From Bacteroidia bacterium (GTDB taxonomy: Bacteria > Bacteroidota > Bacteroidia > CAIKAF01), in the NCBI GenBank assembly GCA_016742095.1, contig JACVCJ010000036.1, positions 1 to 37,147 on the forward strand: a stretch of DNA of 37,147 bases, written 5' to 3'. Both the position numbers and the translations under genes were made by a program. The notes below the pieces were generated by a model. That model saw only the letters and a program-made list of their open reading frames with translations. It searched no databases and was not told the origin of the DNA. Below, piece by piece: positions 26,951 through 31,844 of the stretch (the first letter of the stretch is position 1; each line of letters begins with the position of its first letter).

Positions 26951-27008
26951 TGATACAAATTACCCCTATAAAATCCATTTTTTTTTAGATGAGGAGCCCG
27001 TAAAAGCA

Positions 27009-27037
27009 GAAAAGTCACTCAATACGAGTGACTTTTC
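27009..27037 (-). terminator. Terminator of the choice-of-anchor-L protein gene
   Basis: A perfect 12-bp stem (GAAAAGTCACTC and its complement) with a 5-base loop lies 24 bases past the stop. On the minus strand the stem ends in TTTTC and is followed by TGCTTTTA, so the U-tract is imperfect. Confidence 0.65.
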
Positions 27038-27060
27038 TTCGGGTAAGCCTGTTAAGGCGC

Positions 27061-29727
27061 TTATTTCTGGAATATCGTGACGGTGGTCTCAAACTTGGCC
27101 AGTTCGCCATCGCAGTTATTGTAGAAAATGGTTATGAAATAAACACCTTCTGAAATGTTCTTGGGTTGCCACTGTATACTGGGATCTTCGGTCTCGTACA
27201 CTTTCTTGCCCCAGCGGTTGAATATCTTACAGCTGAATTTTTCGCTGTCGTTGAATTCGTTGGTGGTATAGATATCGTTCTGCCCGTCGCCGTTGGGTGA
27301 GAACACATTCGGCATGGCCTGCGGATTGGCGCCTTTCTGCAGTACTACTTCCGCCGTATCCGAAATACTTCCGCATGCATTGTCGATGGTTACGGTAAGT
27401 TGTCCCGATTGGGTAACAGTGGTGGTTGGCATATTGCCCGTACCTACACCGCCCCAGCTGATGGCGTCGCTGCCGTTGTAGTTGCTGCTGTCGATGCCCA
27501 CGATCAGTTCGTCACCGTCGCAGAGTACGATGGTCGGCGGCAGATTGGGCGTAGACGGTTGTGCGACCACCACATAGATACTGTCGGTATTTTTGCAGTT
27601 CACGTTATCGGTTATGGTCAGGTACATCCAGCCTTCACTGCTCGTAGTGGTAGTGTCGGTGGTGGCGCCGTTGCTCCAGTTGAACGAAGTGTAGGGCGGG
27701 TTACCGGCCGGCGGAATGGTATCGTTGTACAGGGTAAGTTCATTGCCCTGACAGATGGCCGTGGTATCCGCATCCGGACTGATCTTCACGGCCACGGTGG
27801 GGTTAAGTACCACGGTATAGGTACTGGTACCGCAGGCTCCGGAAGAGTCGTAGGTAACGGTAAAGTTGATGGTCTGTGTACCGGGACCCGGGTTCGAACC
27901 GTAGAAGTTCGGGTTCGGGGAATTCGGGTCGGACAGGAACTGGGCCGGAGACCAGGAGTAATTTACGCCCGGTATATTGTTCGGGTTCGATCCCGACGGG
28001 GCATTCAGGATAAAATCGGTATTGGAACAGATAAAGCGCGGTGGCCAGGTAAGCACCATCTGTGCCGGCTGGAATACTTCCACCGTATCGCGCAGGATAC
28101 AGCCGTTGGCATCGGTTACCAGCACCACATAGCTGCCTGCACCGAGCCCGCTGATGTCCTGGTTGCTGCCTCCGCTCACCGGCGAACCGTTCAGGGCGGT
28201 CCATGCATAGGTGAAGGGCGCCAGGTTGCCGTTCACGGTCATGTCGATGGCTCCGTCTGCCGACTGGAAGCAGGACAGGCTGTCGATATCGTACACCATA
28301 CTGAACTGCGGCGGCTGCACCGTAAGGTAGAAACTGTCCTTAACGGCCGTGTATATGCCGCAGCCTTCCGACGCCGTGACGACGCACCAGCCCGAAGTAG
28401 TGGCGGGCAGGGTAATGGGGTTGGTACCTACGGCTCCGGGTACGGTCCAGGTTATGGTATAGGGTGGCACCCCGCCCGTGACGGTGGCATTGGCAGTATA
28501 GGGTATGCCGGGACATCGTGTAATATCAGGCCCTGCGTCCACCACCAGCGGCAGGAGGTCGTGTATGTACAGGGTGACCTCCGATTCCACCGTGTCGCCG
28601 CAGAGCGTTACAATACTTACATTAAAGATCACGGTTTCGATACCTTCGGTAACACCGTCAGCGGGAAAGCTGATGGTCACCTGAACGGAATCCTGTCCGG
28701 CCGGGAAGGTGATCTGGTTCGGGAAGGGATTACCGCCCACATTGTAGTCTACGCCGTTGGTAGCCGTTCCGCTGATGTTCACGTTGGATACAAAAGGCTG
28801 GGTCAGGCTGCCGAAACGCTGGAAGGTAAGCACCACGTCCGAACAACCTTCATAGATAACGGTATCGTTCGGGGCCGAGGTATAACTGTAATCCGGCGTA
28901 ATGGTAACACTGTTGGCCGAAAAGGAGTTCTTTTCAAAGAACACCCAGGAGTCAAAGGCGCTGTCGCCCCCGTCGGCAATGGCCAGGCGTATGGTATAGG
29001 TCTGGCAGGGCACTACGTGTGCAATGGCCGTGAGCCGTACTGTAAACCCGTCGCAGGCTATGCCCGAAGGTGCGCCGCAGAGGTTATCAATATAATAGTT
29101 ACAGTTCGGGTTCACGCCGGTGTTGCAGGGGCCTGTGCAGCCCACGCCGTAGCCGTTGTTCACCGTGTTGATACTCACCGGAGTAGCGGTATTTGGGATA
29201 AGGGCAATGTTCATATTGGTGTAGTTACCTCCCAGCGGGTTCGGACCCGACAGCAGGAAGGCAAATACGTCGTTCACACTTCCGTTCACATATTCGTTGT
29301 ACTCTTCCGAGCCGAATACGTAATCGAACTTCAGGGTATCGCCCGAAGGCACAAAATCGAACTGCAGAATGGCCGCGTCATTGGTAGGTACCCCGGCAAT
29401 GGCGGCCAGTGTGGGGTCACCGGGAGTACCGTTGGAAGTGCTGCAGAAGTTACCCGGAGGGCCGTTGAATAACGGATCAGTGGCATTACCGGTCGAGATC
29501 ACCAGGCCACCCTGGATGGGCAGGCTGGTTCCGCCCGCCGTGAACTGTGCCAGTGCGTTCGCATTACCGGTGTAGGAAATATTCGATACATTCAATCCAC
29601 CCCCTACGAGCACACTTGTTACAGCCTGGTTCGGAGTTACCGGGGTCGTGGTAACCTGTGCTTTCCCCCCGTGCATGAAACAGAAAAATGCGGCAAAAGC
29701 CGCAACAGAGAAGTTTAGACCTTTCAT
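27061..29727 (-). CDS. Choice-of-anchor-L / SprB-repeat surface protein with gliding-type (type B) T9SS C-terminal domain
   Basis: An 888-residue exported protein with signal peptide MKGLNFSVAAFAAFFCFMHG. Residues about 27-275 form a choice-of-anchor L domain (DYVFGSEEYNEYVNG; ADGGDSAFDSWVFFE). A Calx-beta-like segment follows (about 280-395; NGVDYN, GVTEGIETV), then PKD-like and SprB-type repeats (DSLSCFQSADGAID; GLGAGSYVVLVTDANGC). The last roughly 85 residues (NVFSPNGDGQND; IFNRWGKKVYE) are the gliding-motility-associated type B sorting domain. The family is surface-exposed, often in adhesion or gliding. A type B domain usually needs a PorP/SprF-like partner, which is not encoded nearby. 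It is monocistronic, with an unusual inverted repeat around its promoter. Confidence 0.93.
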   Translation of the reverse strand: MKGLNFSVAAFAAFFCFMHGGKAQVTTTPVTPNQAVTSVLVGGGLNVSNISYTGNANALAQFTAGGTSLPIQGGLVISTGNATDPLFNGPPGNFCSTSNGTPGDPTLAAIAGVPTNDAAILQFDFVPSGDTLKFDYVFGSEEYNEYVNGSVNDVFAFLLSGPNPLGGNYTNMNIALIPNTATPVSINTVNNGYGVGCTGPCNTGVNPNCNYYIDNLCGAPSGIACDGFTVRLTAIAHVVPCQTYTIRLAIADGGDSAFDSWVFFEKNSFSANSVTITPDYSYTSAPNDTVIYEGCSDVVLTFQRFGSLTQPFVSNVNISGTATNGVDYNVGGNPFPNQITFPAGQDSVQVTISFPADGVTEGIETVIFNVSIVTLCGDTVESEVTLYIHDLLPLVVDAGPDITRCPGIPYTANATVTGGVPPYTITWTVPGAVGTNPITLPATTSGWCVVTASEGCGIYTAVKDSFYLTVQPPQFSMVYDIDSLSCFQSADGAIDMTVNGNLAPFTYAWTALNGSPVSGGSNQDISGLGAGSYVVLVTDANGCILRDTVEVFQPAQMVLTWPPRFICSNTDFILNAPSGSNPNNIPGVNYSWSPAQFLSDPNSPNPNFYGSNPGPGTQTINFTVTYDSSGACGTSTYTVVLNPTVAVKISPDADTTAICQGNELTLYNDTIPPAGNPPYTSFNWSNGATTDTTTTSSEGWMYLTITDNVNCKNTDSIYVVVAQPSTPNLPPTIVLCDGDELIVGIDSSNYNGSDAISWGGVGTGNMPTTTVTQSGQLTVTIDNACGSISDTAEVVLQKGANPQAMPNVFSPNGDGQNDIYTTNEFNDSEKFSCKIFNRWGKKVYETEDPSIQWQPKNISEGVYFITIFYNNCDGELAKFETTVTIFQK

Positions 29728-29731
29728 ACGC

Positions 29732-29789
29732 TTAACTATACTTTTCTCAAATATATTAACTTTTTTTAAAAGTCATAAAGTATAGTTAA
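29732..29789. promoter_or_regulatory. 13-bp inverted repeat bracketing the promoter of the choice-of-anchor-L gene
   Basis: TTAACTATACTTT (29732-29744) and AAAGTATAGTTAA (29777-29789) are exact reverse complements separated by 32 bases. The -7 box lies between the arms. The distal arm overlaps the stop codon of the rRNA methyltransferase gene. The arrangement suggests a two-site operator, or a hairpin in the read-through transcript. Confidence 0.55.
29748..29755 (-). promoter_or_regulatory. -7 box TATATTTG of the choice-of-anchor-L gene
   Basis: An exact TAnnTTTG match on the minus strand lies 20 bases before the ATG, between the arms of the 13-bp inverted repeat. Confidence 0.6.
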
Positions 29790-31003
29790 ACTTTCCTTAT
29801 CATTCGGGACATATAAAAACCGTCAAAACCCTGCTCCGAAGGGTAAACGGTCTGTTCTGAAACCGGTTCAAAGTTTTTATTTTCAAGTAAAAAGGCCTGG
29901 GTCTGCTCCTGGTTCTCTTCGGGAAGCAGGCTGCAGGTTGCGTAAACTAAGGCCCCTCCGGGCTTCACCATACGGGCATATTCTTTTAGTATATACCCCT
30001 GCAATAGTTTAAGCTCGTCCACGAAGCTGTTCGTGATCCTGTATTTGGCGTCCGGGTTGCGTTTCAGCACGCCGCTGCCGCTGCAGGGAACGTCCAGCAG
30101 CAGTACATCGGCCCGGTCTTCCTTGTTCTTAATGCCGGCAAGTCCGCGTATCTGCTCGGTCTGTATGGTATCTATGCCGGCGCGGGCCGCTCTTTTTTTC
30201 AGTTCTTCCAGCTTCCAGGCCTCGGTATCCATAGAAAGGATACGACCTTTGTTCTGCATTTCAGCCGCCAGGAACAGGCTTTTACCGCCGGCGCCGGCAC
30301 AGGCGTCAATGACGGTCATGCCCGGTTTTACGGCACAGAACTCGGCAATTTTCTGCGATCCGGCGTCCTGTACCTCAAAGCAGCCGGCCCGGAACAGCGG
30401 ACTGCTGAATACGTTCCAGCGGCGTTCGCAGATGAGGGCATAAGGCGTAAAAGGCGTCTGCCGCGTCTGTATACCTTCGGCGGCCAGGTTTTTCTGTAGT
30501 TCGGCCACGGAATTCTTCAGTATGTTGCAGCGCAGGATGAGGTCGGCGGGTTCGTTCATGGCGGCCAGTTCCCGGGTCCAGCGTTCGGTATCGAGTTGTG
30601 CCAGGGCCCGTTGCTGCAGTTCGTCACCTACAGAATAACGTATTTCAGGCTTTTGTTCCGCCTCCCGCATACGGCTGCGGAAGTCCTTCTTCTGCAGGTC
30701 TTTGAATTCACTCCAGTCGGGCAGACCGTTCCCGGCCGAAAGCCAGTACACCCCGAACACTTCCCAGAGTTCTTTCTTCCGGAAGCCGGGTTCACGTTCC
30801 AGCAGGTAGTGCCACAGGCGCCAGTAGCGGATTATTTCGTAGGCGCTTTCAGCAATAAAGGCCCGGTCGTTACGGCCGTATTTCCGGTTGGCGGAAAACA
30901 GCTGTTCCATGGCCTTGTCGGCTTTGCGGCCATGGGCGAACACTTCTTCGAGAATTTCGCTGATGGCCTGTATCCATGCCGGGTTTATGCGGGTGTTCAT
31001 CAT
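29786..31003 (-). CDS. RsmB/NOP-family rRNA (cytosine-C5) methyltransferase
   Basis: A 405-residue SAM-dependent enzyme that methylates C5 of a cytosine in ribosomal RNA. The N-terminal helical domain (about 1-140) is followed by the Rossmann catalytic domain. The SAM motif is DACAGAGGKSLFLAAEM, with MDTE downstream. The catalytic pair is Cys307 in DVPCSGSG and Cys357 in ATCSLLPEE; the 50-residue spacing fits the family. Without position-specific data I cannot say whether it is RsmB or RsmF. It begins immediately after the truA stop codon (TAA-ATG-ATG), so both RNA modification genes form an operon. Confidence 0.93.
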   Translation of the reverse strand: MMNTRINPAWIQAISEILEEVFAHGRKADKAMEQLFSANRKYGRNDRAFIAESAYEIIRYWRLWHYLLEREPGFRKKELWEVFGVYWLSAGNGLPDWSEFKDLQKKDFRSRMREAEQKPEIRYSVGDELQQRALAQLDTERWTRELAAMNEPADLILRCNILKNSVAELQKNLAAEGIQTRQTPFTPYALICERRWNVFSSPLFRAGCFEVQDAGSQKIAEFCAVKPGMTVIDACAGAGGKSLFLAAEMQNKGRILSMDTEAWKLEELKKRAARAGIDTIQTEQIRGLAGIKNKEDRADVLLLDVPCSGSGVLKRNPDAKYRITNSFVDELKLLQGYILKEYARMVKPGGALVYATCSLLPEENQEQTQAFLLENKNFEPVSEQTVYPSEQGFDGFYMSRMIRKV

Positions 31004-31765
31004 TTATTTTTCCGGGGATATAAAAATGGAAGAAGGGTAAATAACGTCGCTGAGATGCAGGCCTTCGGGGGCGGCGTTCTCACCGGCCTGTGTACGGTCC
31101 AGCGCGGCCAGGATCAGGGGCATGTCCTCCGGGCGGCGTTTGCCCGCACCGATCTCGAGCATGGTGCCCGTGAGGCTTCGTACCATGTTCATTACAAATC
31201 GGTTGGCGCGTATCGTAAAGGTCAGCATCCGGCCGTCCTGCCGCCATTCGGCCTGGCTTACGGTGCAGCGTTTGTGCGCTACTTCGGCCCGGGCGCTGCA
31301 GAACGAACTGAAGTCGTGTTCGCCCGGTATGTATTGCGCGGCTTTCTGCATGGCCTCCAGGTCGGGAATGCGGTACAGCTGTAATGCCGTATCTTTCAGG
31401 AAGGCGGATTTACCCAGGTGAATAAAATACCGGTATTCCCGTGCCTCGGCGCTGAAGCGGGCATGGGCATCGGGCTGTACCTCAAGGATCCGGTGTATGG
31501 CAATGTCCTGCGGCAGCAGGCGGTTGAGCTTGTAGGTAAGCGTTTTGTTGTCCATCGGGACTTCTTCCAGCTCAAAATGGGCAAAACTCTTGAGGGCATG
31601 TACGCCGGCATCGGTACGTCCCTGGCCGGTAACGGGAACCTCGCGGCGCAGGATCAGGGCCAGGGCCTCTTCCAGGGTCTGCTGCACGGAAGGGCCGTTG
31701 GGTTGTACCTGCCAGCCGGAATAGGCCGTGCCTTTATAGGAAAGTTCGATGAAAAAACGCTTCAT
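31004..31765 (-). CDS. truA: tRNA pseudouridine synthase A
   Basis: A 253-residue enzyme converting uridines 38-40 of the anticodon arm to pseudouridine. The catalytic Asp52 lies in GQGRTDAGVHA. The N-terminal strand MKRFFIELSYKGTAYSGWQ and the central HDFSSFCSARAE block are typical, as is FVMNMVRSLTGTMLEIG. I start at ATG 31765, because the longer open frame (to 31786) runs through the TACCTTTG promoter box. It is first in an operon with the rRNA methyltransferase and divergent from ffh. Confidence 0.96.
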   Translation of the reverse strand: MKRFFIELSYKGTAYSGWQVQPNGPSVQQTLEEALALILRREVPVTGQGRTDAGVHALKSFAHFELEEVPMDNKTLTYKLNRLLPQDIAIHRILEVQPDAHARFSAEAREYRYFIHLGKSAFLKDTALQLYRIPDLEAMQKAAQYIPGEHDFSSFCSARAEVAHKRCTVSQAEWRQDGRMLTFTIRANRFVMNMVRSLTGTMLEIGAGKRRPEDMPLILAALDRTQAGENAAPEGLHLSDVIYPSSIFISPEK

Positions 31766-31772
31766 ACCGCCG

Positions 31773-31780
31773 CAAAGGTA
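31773..31780 (-). promoter_or_regulatory. -7 box TACCTTTG of truA
   Basis: An exact TAnnTTTG match ends seven bases before the ATG, with T-rich sequence about 19-20 bases upstream. The leader should be nearly absent. Confidence 0.75.
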
Positions 31781-31844
31781 ATGCAATCTTCAACGTATAA
31801 AATAATATGCCGGAAGAGCGGCTGTAACGAGCCGGGGATTTTAA

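Follow-up and report, generated by a model that had tools for sequence, protein, structure and literature searches.

The window analysed here is an entire contig of 37,147 nt, taken at its full length from a genome of 3.7 Mb in 70 contigs, and both its T9SS genes and its type of promoter point to a host within the Bacteroidota. Three codirectional genes of its minus strand are relevant to this work (Table 1). The last of them encodes an 888-aa product that the initial annotation called an anchor-L surface protein, an identity that is borne out by the choice-of-anchor L, SprB-repeat and CHU_C (T9SS signal) regions found in it. The protein belongs to a large surface-protein family, with 25 matches counted in its own genome (23 of the 69 candidates scored), and its stop codon is closely followed by a hairpin (perfect 13-bp stem, 5-nt loop) that is perhaps its terminator. 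The gene upstream encodes an rRNA cytosine methyltransferase labelled RsmB/F-like at the level of the family only, its score being under the NCBIfam equivalog cut-offs, and it is adjoined in turn by truA. Since the gap between these two genes is 0 bp, they are likely to form one operon.

The rsmB-like and anchor-L genes are separated by a gap of 58 bp with only 21% GC (79% AT), where the inverted repeat is found. A repeat search recovered the two exact complementary arms originally reported (13 of 13 positions, with a spacer of 32 bp). The promoter box and a shorter ACTTTT/AAAAGT pair were read from the sequence of the spacer, and the rsmB-like reading frame does end inside the distal arm, as had been pointed out. 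On the minus strand the distal arm with the rsmB-like stop codon comes first, and the spacer then contains a small hairpin followed by the TATATTTG box. Next comes the proximal arm, which is separated by four bases from the ATG of the anchor-L gene, and the predicted 5′ UTR of this gene consists mostly of that arm.

Table 1. Features of the locus, with positions in the window.
Feature	Position	Strand	Remarks
Hairpin past the anchor-L gene, perfect 13-bp stem	27008-27038		5-nt loop; just past the anchor-L stop codon
Choice-of-anchor L / SprB-repeat / CHU_C (T9SS signal) surface protein	27061-29727	minus	888 aa
Terminator-like hairpin TGCGGC-TTTT-GCCGCA with T-rich tail	29689-29704	minus	anchor-L codons 8-13, signal peptide
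Predicted read-through hairpin	29730-29791	minus	-17.9 kcal/mol
Outer stem of the read-through hairpin	29791-29777 / 29744-29730	minus	15 pairs, one G-U; ends 2 nt before AUG
Inner stem of the read-through hairpin	29775-29768 / 29764-29757	minus	8 pairs, one G-U
Proximal arm TTAACTATACTTT	29732-29744	minus	-1 to +12 of predicted start; ends 4 bases before ATG
Predicted transcription start	29743	minus	box position plus published box-to-start spacing
Promoter -7 box TATATTTG	29755-29748	minus	between the arms; ends 20 nt before ATG
Inner pair ACTTTT/AAAAGT	29759-29764 / 29768-29773		inside the spacer
Distal arm AAAGTATAGTTAA	29777-29789	minus	-34 to -46 of predicted start; holds the rsmB-like stop codon
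RsmB/F-like rRNA cytosine methyltransferase	29786-31003	minus	upstream of the anchor-L gene, codirectional
TruA tRNA pseudouridine synthase	31004-31786	minus	adjoins the rsmB-like gene

The presence of a promoter between the arms, already proposed in the initial annotation, is supported by other genes of the genome. A count of TAnnTTTG over the 120 nt upstream of 353 genes gave 111 occurrences in the sense orientation, against 33 in antisense and 21 for a reversed control. In 34 of the 111 the motif ends at 17-25 nt from the ATG, the largest cluster of distances (a second one occurs at 3-9 nt), and the 20 nt of the anchor-L box are within it. The match to a -33 element is poor by eye, an element described as far less evident than the -7 box in Flavobacterium johnsoniae (PMC6847099). 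Transcription starts of this bacterium are reported to fall 4-5 nt after the box (PMC6847099), and in a map of F. psychrophilum the box occupies positions -12 to -5 (PMC9723704). With this spacing, the +1 of the anchor-L gene is predicted at the second base of the proximal arm and, because the predicted start is inside this arm, the gene's own transcript would lack the distal one.

A chance 13-bp match at this distance had been regarded as improbable, a view that holds locally and is tempered at the scale of the genome. Of 20,000 dinucleotide shuffles of the 58-bp gap, 4 yielded a perfect repeat with arms of 13 bp or more and a spacer of 0-60, and wider nested regions around the gap gave 9, 11 and 6 of 20,000. 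When each of the 244 gaps in a sample of 437 kb was shuffled, on the other hand, 0.040 such repeats were expected per sample, which corresponds to 0.34 per genome. When the whole sample was shuffled, at least one was present in 8 of 200 trials. Genes in the samples were called as longest-ATG ORFs of at least 90 codons, so that some starts are over-extended and gaps can be swallowed, as happened with a repeat on contig C62. Shorter repeats with long spacers are above expectation in this genome (32 observed with arms of at least 9 bp, 8.4 expected), and some of those with arms of at least 10 bp resemble, by eye, terminators with a flawed stem. In 837 kb (437 kb with this contig and 400 kb without it) there are four repeats of at least 13 bp with a spacer of 11-60: the anchor-L one, another with mirrored boxes, a nested hairpin rich in GC and a fourth that lies within a called CDS. 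The single occurrence in the sample is no evidence in itself, because the stretch was chosen on account of the repeat. Altogether, the repeat is unusual for its position, yet one such repeat could arise by luck in a genome of this size. As a separate observation, the repeat with mirrored boxes (L086, G000:C62:49245-49298) is a 13-bp inverted repeat of the same genome with a spacer of 28, placed by the ORF caller inside an ORF, and each of its arms holds a TATCTTTG box, resulting in two promoter-like boxes that are mirror images and point apart.

The comparison with other genomes offered no sign of conservation. Forty genomes were searched, none of the others from the same genus, and the family search covered 16 genomes including its own. 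Three likely orthologues of the anchor-L gene were found, all in other genera and with 46-48% identity over nearly the whole protein; comparison of their promoters revealed no repeat of at least 9 bp in the 260 bp upstream of any of the three, nor is there an rsmB-like gene in their 1.5-kb flanks. A scan of the genome collection gave seven loci at 31-45% identity in the best segment. Among the rsmB-like genes of the family, counted as the best locus in each of 13 genomes and thus leaving out the weaker loci L058-L073 (including the only one of G015), none of the 13 carries a repeat across its stop codon, and a single gene is followed by a 9-bp repeat at 146 bp beyond the stop; G007 gave no rsmB-like match. 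As far as seen in the genomes searched, the repeat is private to this genome. An upstream element common to paralogues was also rejected: among seven other anchor-L-like matches in the same genome, with starts taken as the first ATG, an upstream repeat of 9 bp occurs in one, and three lack a TAnnTTTG box in 150 bp. The idea of a mobile element or MITE remnant, for arms that begin and end in TTAA, was discarded as well, as both the 351-bp region and the arm pair are single-copy in the genome.

These data speak for a rival explanation, that the repeat has no function. The match between two AT-rich arms would be a coincidence in a short gap of 79% AT, and the hairpin and the closed leader described below would follow from it. 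Composition alone would account for the expected number of gap repeats of this kind per genome given above, and conservation is absent in the orthologues and family rsmB-like genes examined. Moreover, a genome search for the 13-mer, proposed in the initial annotation as a check, found one other exact match and two with one mismatch, none of them at a promoter but all within coding sequence or at its end, and a reversed control pattern had 11 matches against 5 for the pattern itself. Set against this are the scarcity of the repeat in local shuffles (4-11 of 20,000) and in the sample-wide ones (8 of 200), and the exact placement of one arm at the stop of the upstream gene and of the other in the leader of the downstream gene. 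We consider a lack of function a serious possibility, somewhat short of an even chance.

The initial annotation also contemplated an invertible promoter, in which a recombinase would flip the 32 bp between the arms (29745-29776) to turn the surface protein on and off. Invertible promoters are highly prevalent in Bacteroidales (PMC10939037), and the locus resembles those invertons in that inverted repeats surround a TAnnTTTG promoter before a surface gene. It differs from them in that no recombinase match lies on the contig, as noted from the start: the four recombinase matches of the genome, three to PF00589 (tyrosine) and one to PF00239 (serine), are all on other contigs. The invertible-promoter resistance loci described in PMC8748976, in contrast, are all directly downstream of an invertase gene. 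In addition, the interior has only 32 bp, a second arm pair was found nowhere in the genome, the three likely orthologues have no upstream repeat of at least 9 bp, and the flanks of the recombinase matches contain a single arm octamer in one case (L106) and none in two others (L107 and L108), all of which makes inversion very unlikely. In the first of these loci (L106, G000:C7:31000-41000), the tyrosine recombinase match occurs about 6 kb from a serine recombinase encoded by a frame of 542 codons, an arrangement suggestive of an integrated element.

A third possibility, likewise raised in the initial annotation, is a paired operator, where a repressor bound to both arms, with centres 45 bp apart, would bridge or loop the promoter. 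The arms match exactly over 13 bp, and one of them lies beside the -33 region while the other covers the predicted start. However, the arm pair (8-bp core, spacer 20-50) occurs once in the 3.7-Mb genome and the 13-mer, with up to one mismatch, at no other promoter, which counts against a shared regulator and is compatible with a regulator of a single target. Neither arm is by eye a clean dimer palindrome, and no regulator gene adjoins, a TetR-like gene being found 6.8 kb away, so that we regard an operator as improbable.

The anatomy of the repeat takes on a different meaning at the level of RNA. A transcript that reads through from the upstream genes is predicted to form a hairpin with a long outer stem and a shorter inner one, leaving the promoter box in a 12-nt bulge. 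The 72-nt read-through segment reaches -17.9 kcal/mol with a z of -4.97, and none of 200 shuffles was as stable, whereas a 99-nt piece ending at 29732 is unexceptional (z -0.96), its stability being equalled in 30 of 200 shuffles. In a read-through RNA running from 120 nt upstream to 45 nt into the CDS, the 15 nt that precede the AUG have a mean unpaired probability of 0.015, the lowest among 655 genes (353 in a first sample and 302 in a second), followed by 0.075. When the sequence upstream of the +1 was shuffled, none of 1000 trials reached this value and the minimum was 0.095, but this closed leader depends on the repeat itself and is thus a consequence of it and not independent evidence, a point that also favours the absence of function. 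For the predicted own RNA, the openness of the same 15 nt was 0.49-0.81 when five different lengths of CDS were included and 0.21 with 120 nt of CDS, while the read-through RNA stayed at 0.01-0.06 over the same six lengths and at 0.04-0.13 for three other upstream ends. The leaders of the three orthologues are more open (0.59, 0.60 and 0.36). The fall in openness from own to read-through RNA has a mean of 0.149 in 33 codirectional genes and of 0.122 in 29 others with a box, which indicates no genome-wide habit of closing the leader among the 62 box genes compared; the anchor-L gene ranks third of the 62.

A fold of this kind could have another role in the RNA, as a processing site or at the 3′ end of the truA-rsmB mRNA, which it would mark or protect. 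The stem starts at the rsmB-like stop and the z of the 72-nt fold would support an RNA role, but the hairpin is not followed by a T-run, and the pattern scan did not classify 29728-29791 as an intrinsic terminator. The stem is AT-rich and the interior long; short loops are the rule in the longest hairpins found in gaps of this genome. A known structured RNA was rejected too, since no Rfam match occurs in the whole contig at gathering thresholds. Such a role seems doubtful to us.

We propose instead that the repeat may act in the RNA as a filter on the origin of the transcript, an action that the initial annotation had not considered and the reading that best fits the anatomy. Judging from sequence and computed folding, we would give it a probability of about 0.38, which makes it the best explanation at hand, with a lack of function as a close second. 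When the gene's own promoter fires, transcription would start within the proximal arm and the resulting mRNA, deprived of the partner strand, would keep a mostly open leader. A polymerase reading through from truA-rsmB would instead copy both arms, and the 15-pair stem formed just before the AUG would make ribosomes load poorly, so that the surface protein would be made only when its own promoter fires. The proposal is favoured by a box at a distance usual in this genome and by the published spacing, which puts the +1 in the proximal arm. Read-through is plausible because the pattern scan reports no terminator on the minus strand of the 58-bp gap. In F. johnsoniae, translation is tuned by RNA structure in the region of the start codon, and the authors call this effect subtle (PMC6847099). 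Against the filter stand the absence of such a repeat at the likely orthologues and rsmB-like stops, the more open leaders of these orthologues, the lack of a genome-wide trend, a match that may be due to chance, a folding that varies with the stretch chosen and an AUG that is outside the stem. Moreover, a ribosome finishing the rsmB-like gene would probably cover the distal arm.

Further downstream, the terminator-like hairpin in the signal peptide of the anchor-L gene is the only such site on the minus strand within 29600-29900, and it could serve as the terminator of the truA-rsmB operon. With loops of up to 6 nt, a hairpin of this kind inside the CDS was found in 1 of 356 genes. With loops of up to 7 there are five in 660 called genes from two samples, four of them in the first 60 nt, and four in antisense, that is, neither depletion nor excess, and its being a unique feature was consequently rejected. 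When the peptide was kept and its codons were drawn synonymously from genome usage, the hairpin formed in 2,242 of 50,000 draws (1,865 with early-codon usage); because of this frequency and the lack of excess over antisense, its presence weighs little as evidence. The five strong sense hairpins (L083, L092, L109, L116 and that of anchor-L) fall by eye in signal-peptide-like or membrane segments in four cases, whereas the fifth resembles an over-extended start. We also considered a two-part switch, in which the repeat would block ribosomes on the read-through RNA and the hairpin of codons 8-13 would then end the truA-rsmB message, while early translation of the own RNA would let the polymerase pass. 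As reported in PMC7858274, close to 100% of transcription was ended by intragenic terminators situated within 100 nt of the beginning of an ORF, and this efficiency disfavours passage of the own RNA through the hairpin. Such a switch is decidedly unlikely; if true, one stretch of DNA would be promoter, filter, leader, signal peptide and terminator of the neighbour.

Comparable arrangements exist in other systems. Transposase transcripts that enter IS10/Tn10 from outside fold over the start while its own transcript does not, but those are the ends of mobile elements, whereas the region studied here has no second copy in the genome. The closest case is that of gene e of phage T4, where lysozyme synthesis is cut 100-fold because the long early RNAs form a hairpin over the start. 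The late promoters of this gene are so placed that the 5′ strand of the hairpin is missing from their transcripts, as also reported for I-TevI (PMC3014915, PMC2988022). For the anchor-L locus, an own transcript without the 5′ strand is predicted from the position of the box, and in the computed folding the upstream transcripts close the ribosome start region (0.015). It is unlike them in being a bacterial chromosome with a host promoter, in a phylum from which Shine-Dalgarno sites are described as naturally absent (PMC6847099), and in a stem that stops 2 nt short of the AUG and leaves the start codon out of the helix. This position is nearer to that of seg43(25), whose hairpin sits just upstream of the RBS (PMC2988022). 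A control like that of T4 gene e and I-TevI is plausible from sequence and folding, and we do not claim membership of that type because the AUG is outside the stem and the start, the read-through and the repression are predicted ones. The EGeRS1 elements of plasmid pLS20 are likewise inverted repeats upstream of genes and are reported to stop expression from the read-through of upstream promoters, but as described in PMC8708921 they are 420-750 bp long, GC-richer than the plasmid and without a strong promoter, and their mechanism is left unexplained there. Among the papers listed in a narrow search of the open literature, none describes the present layout in a Bacteroidota chromosome in its title or the opening of its abstract.

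If the filter on transcript origin is true, a gene of a phylum without Shine-Dalgarno sites would be using a trick of phage T4 to ignore messages started in the wrong place. It would offer one way of separating packed codirectional genes with no terminator between them and, moreover, would be a warning against taking every repeat that flanks a promoter in Bacteroidota for an inverton.
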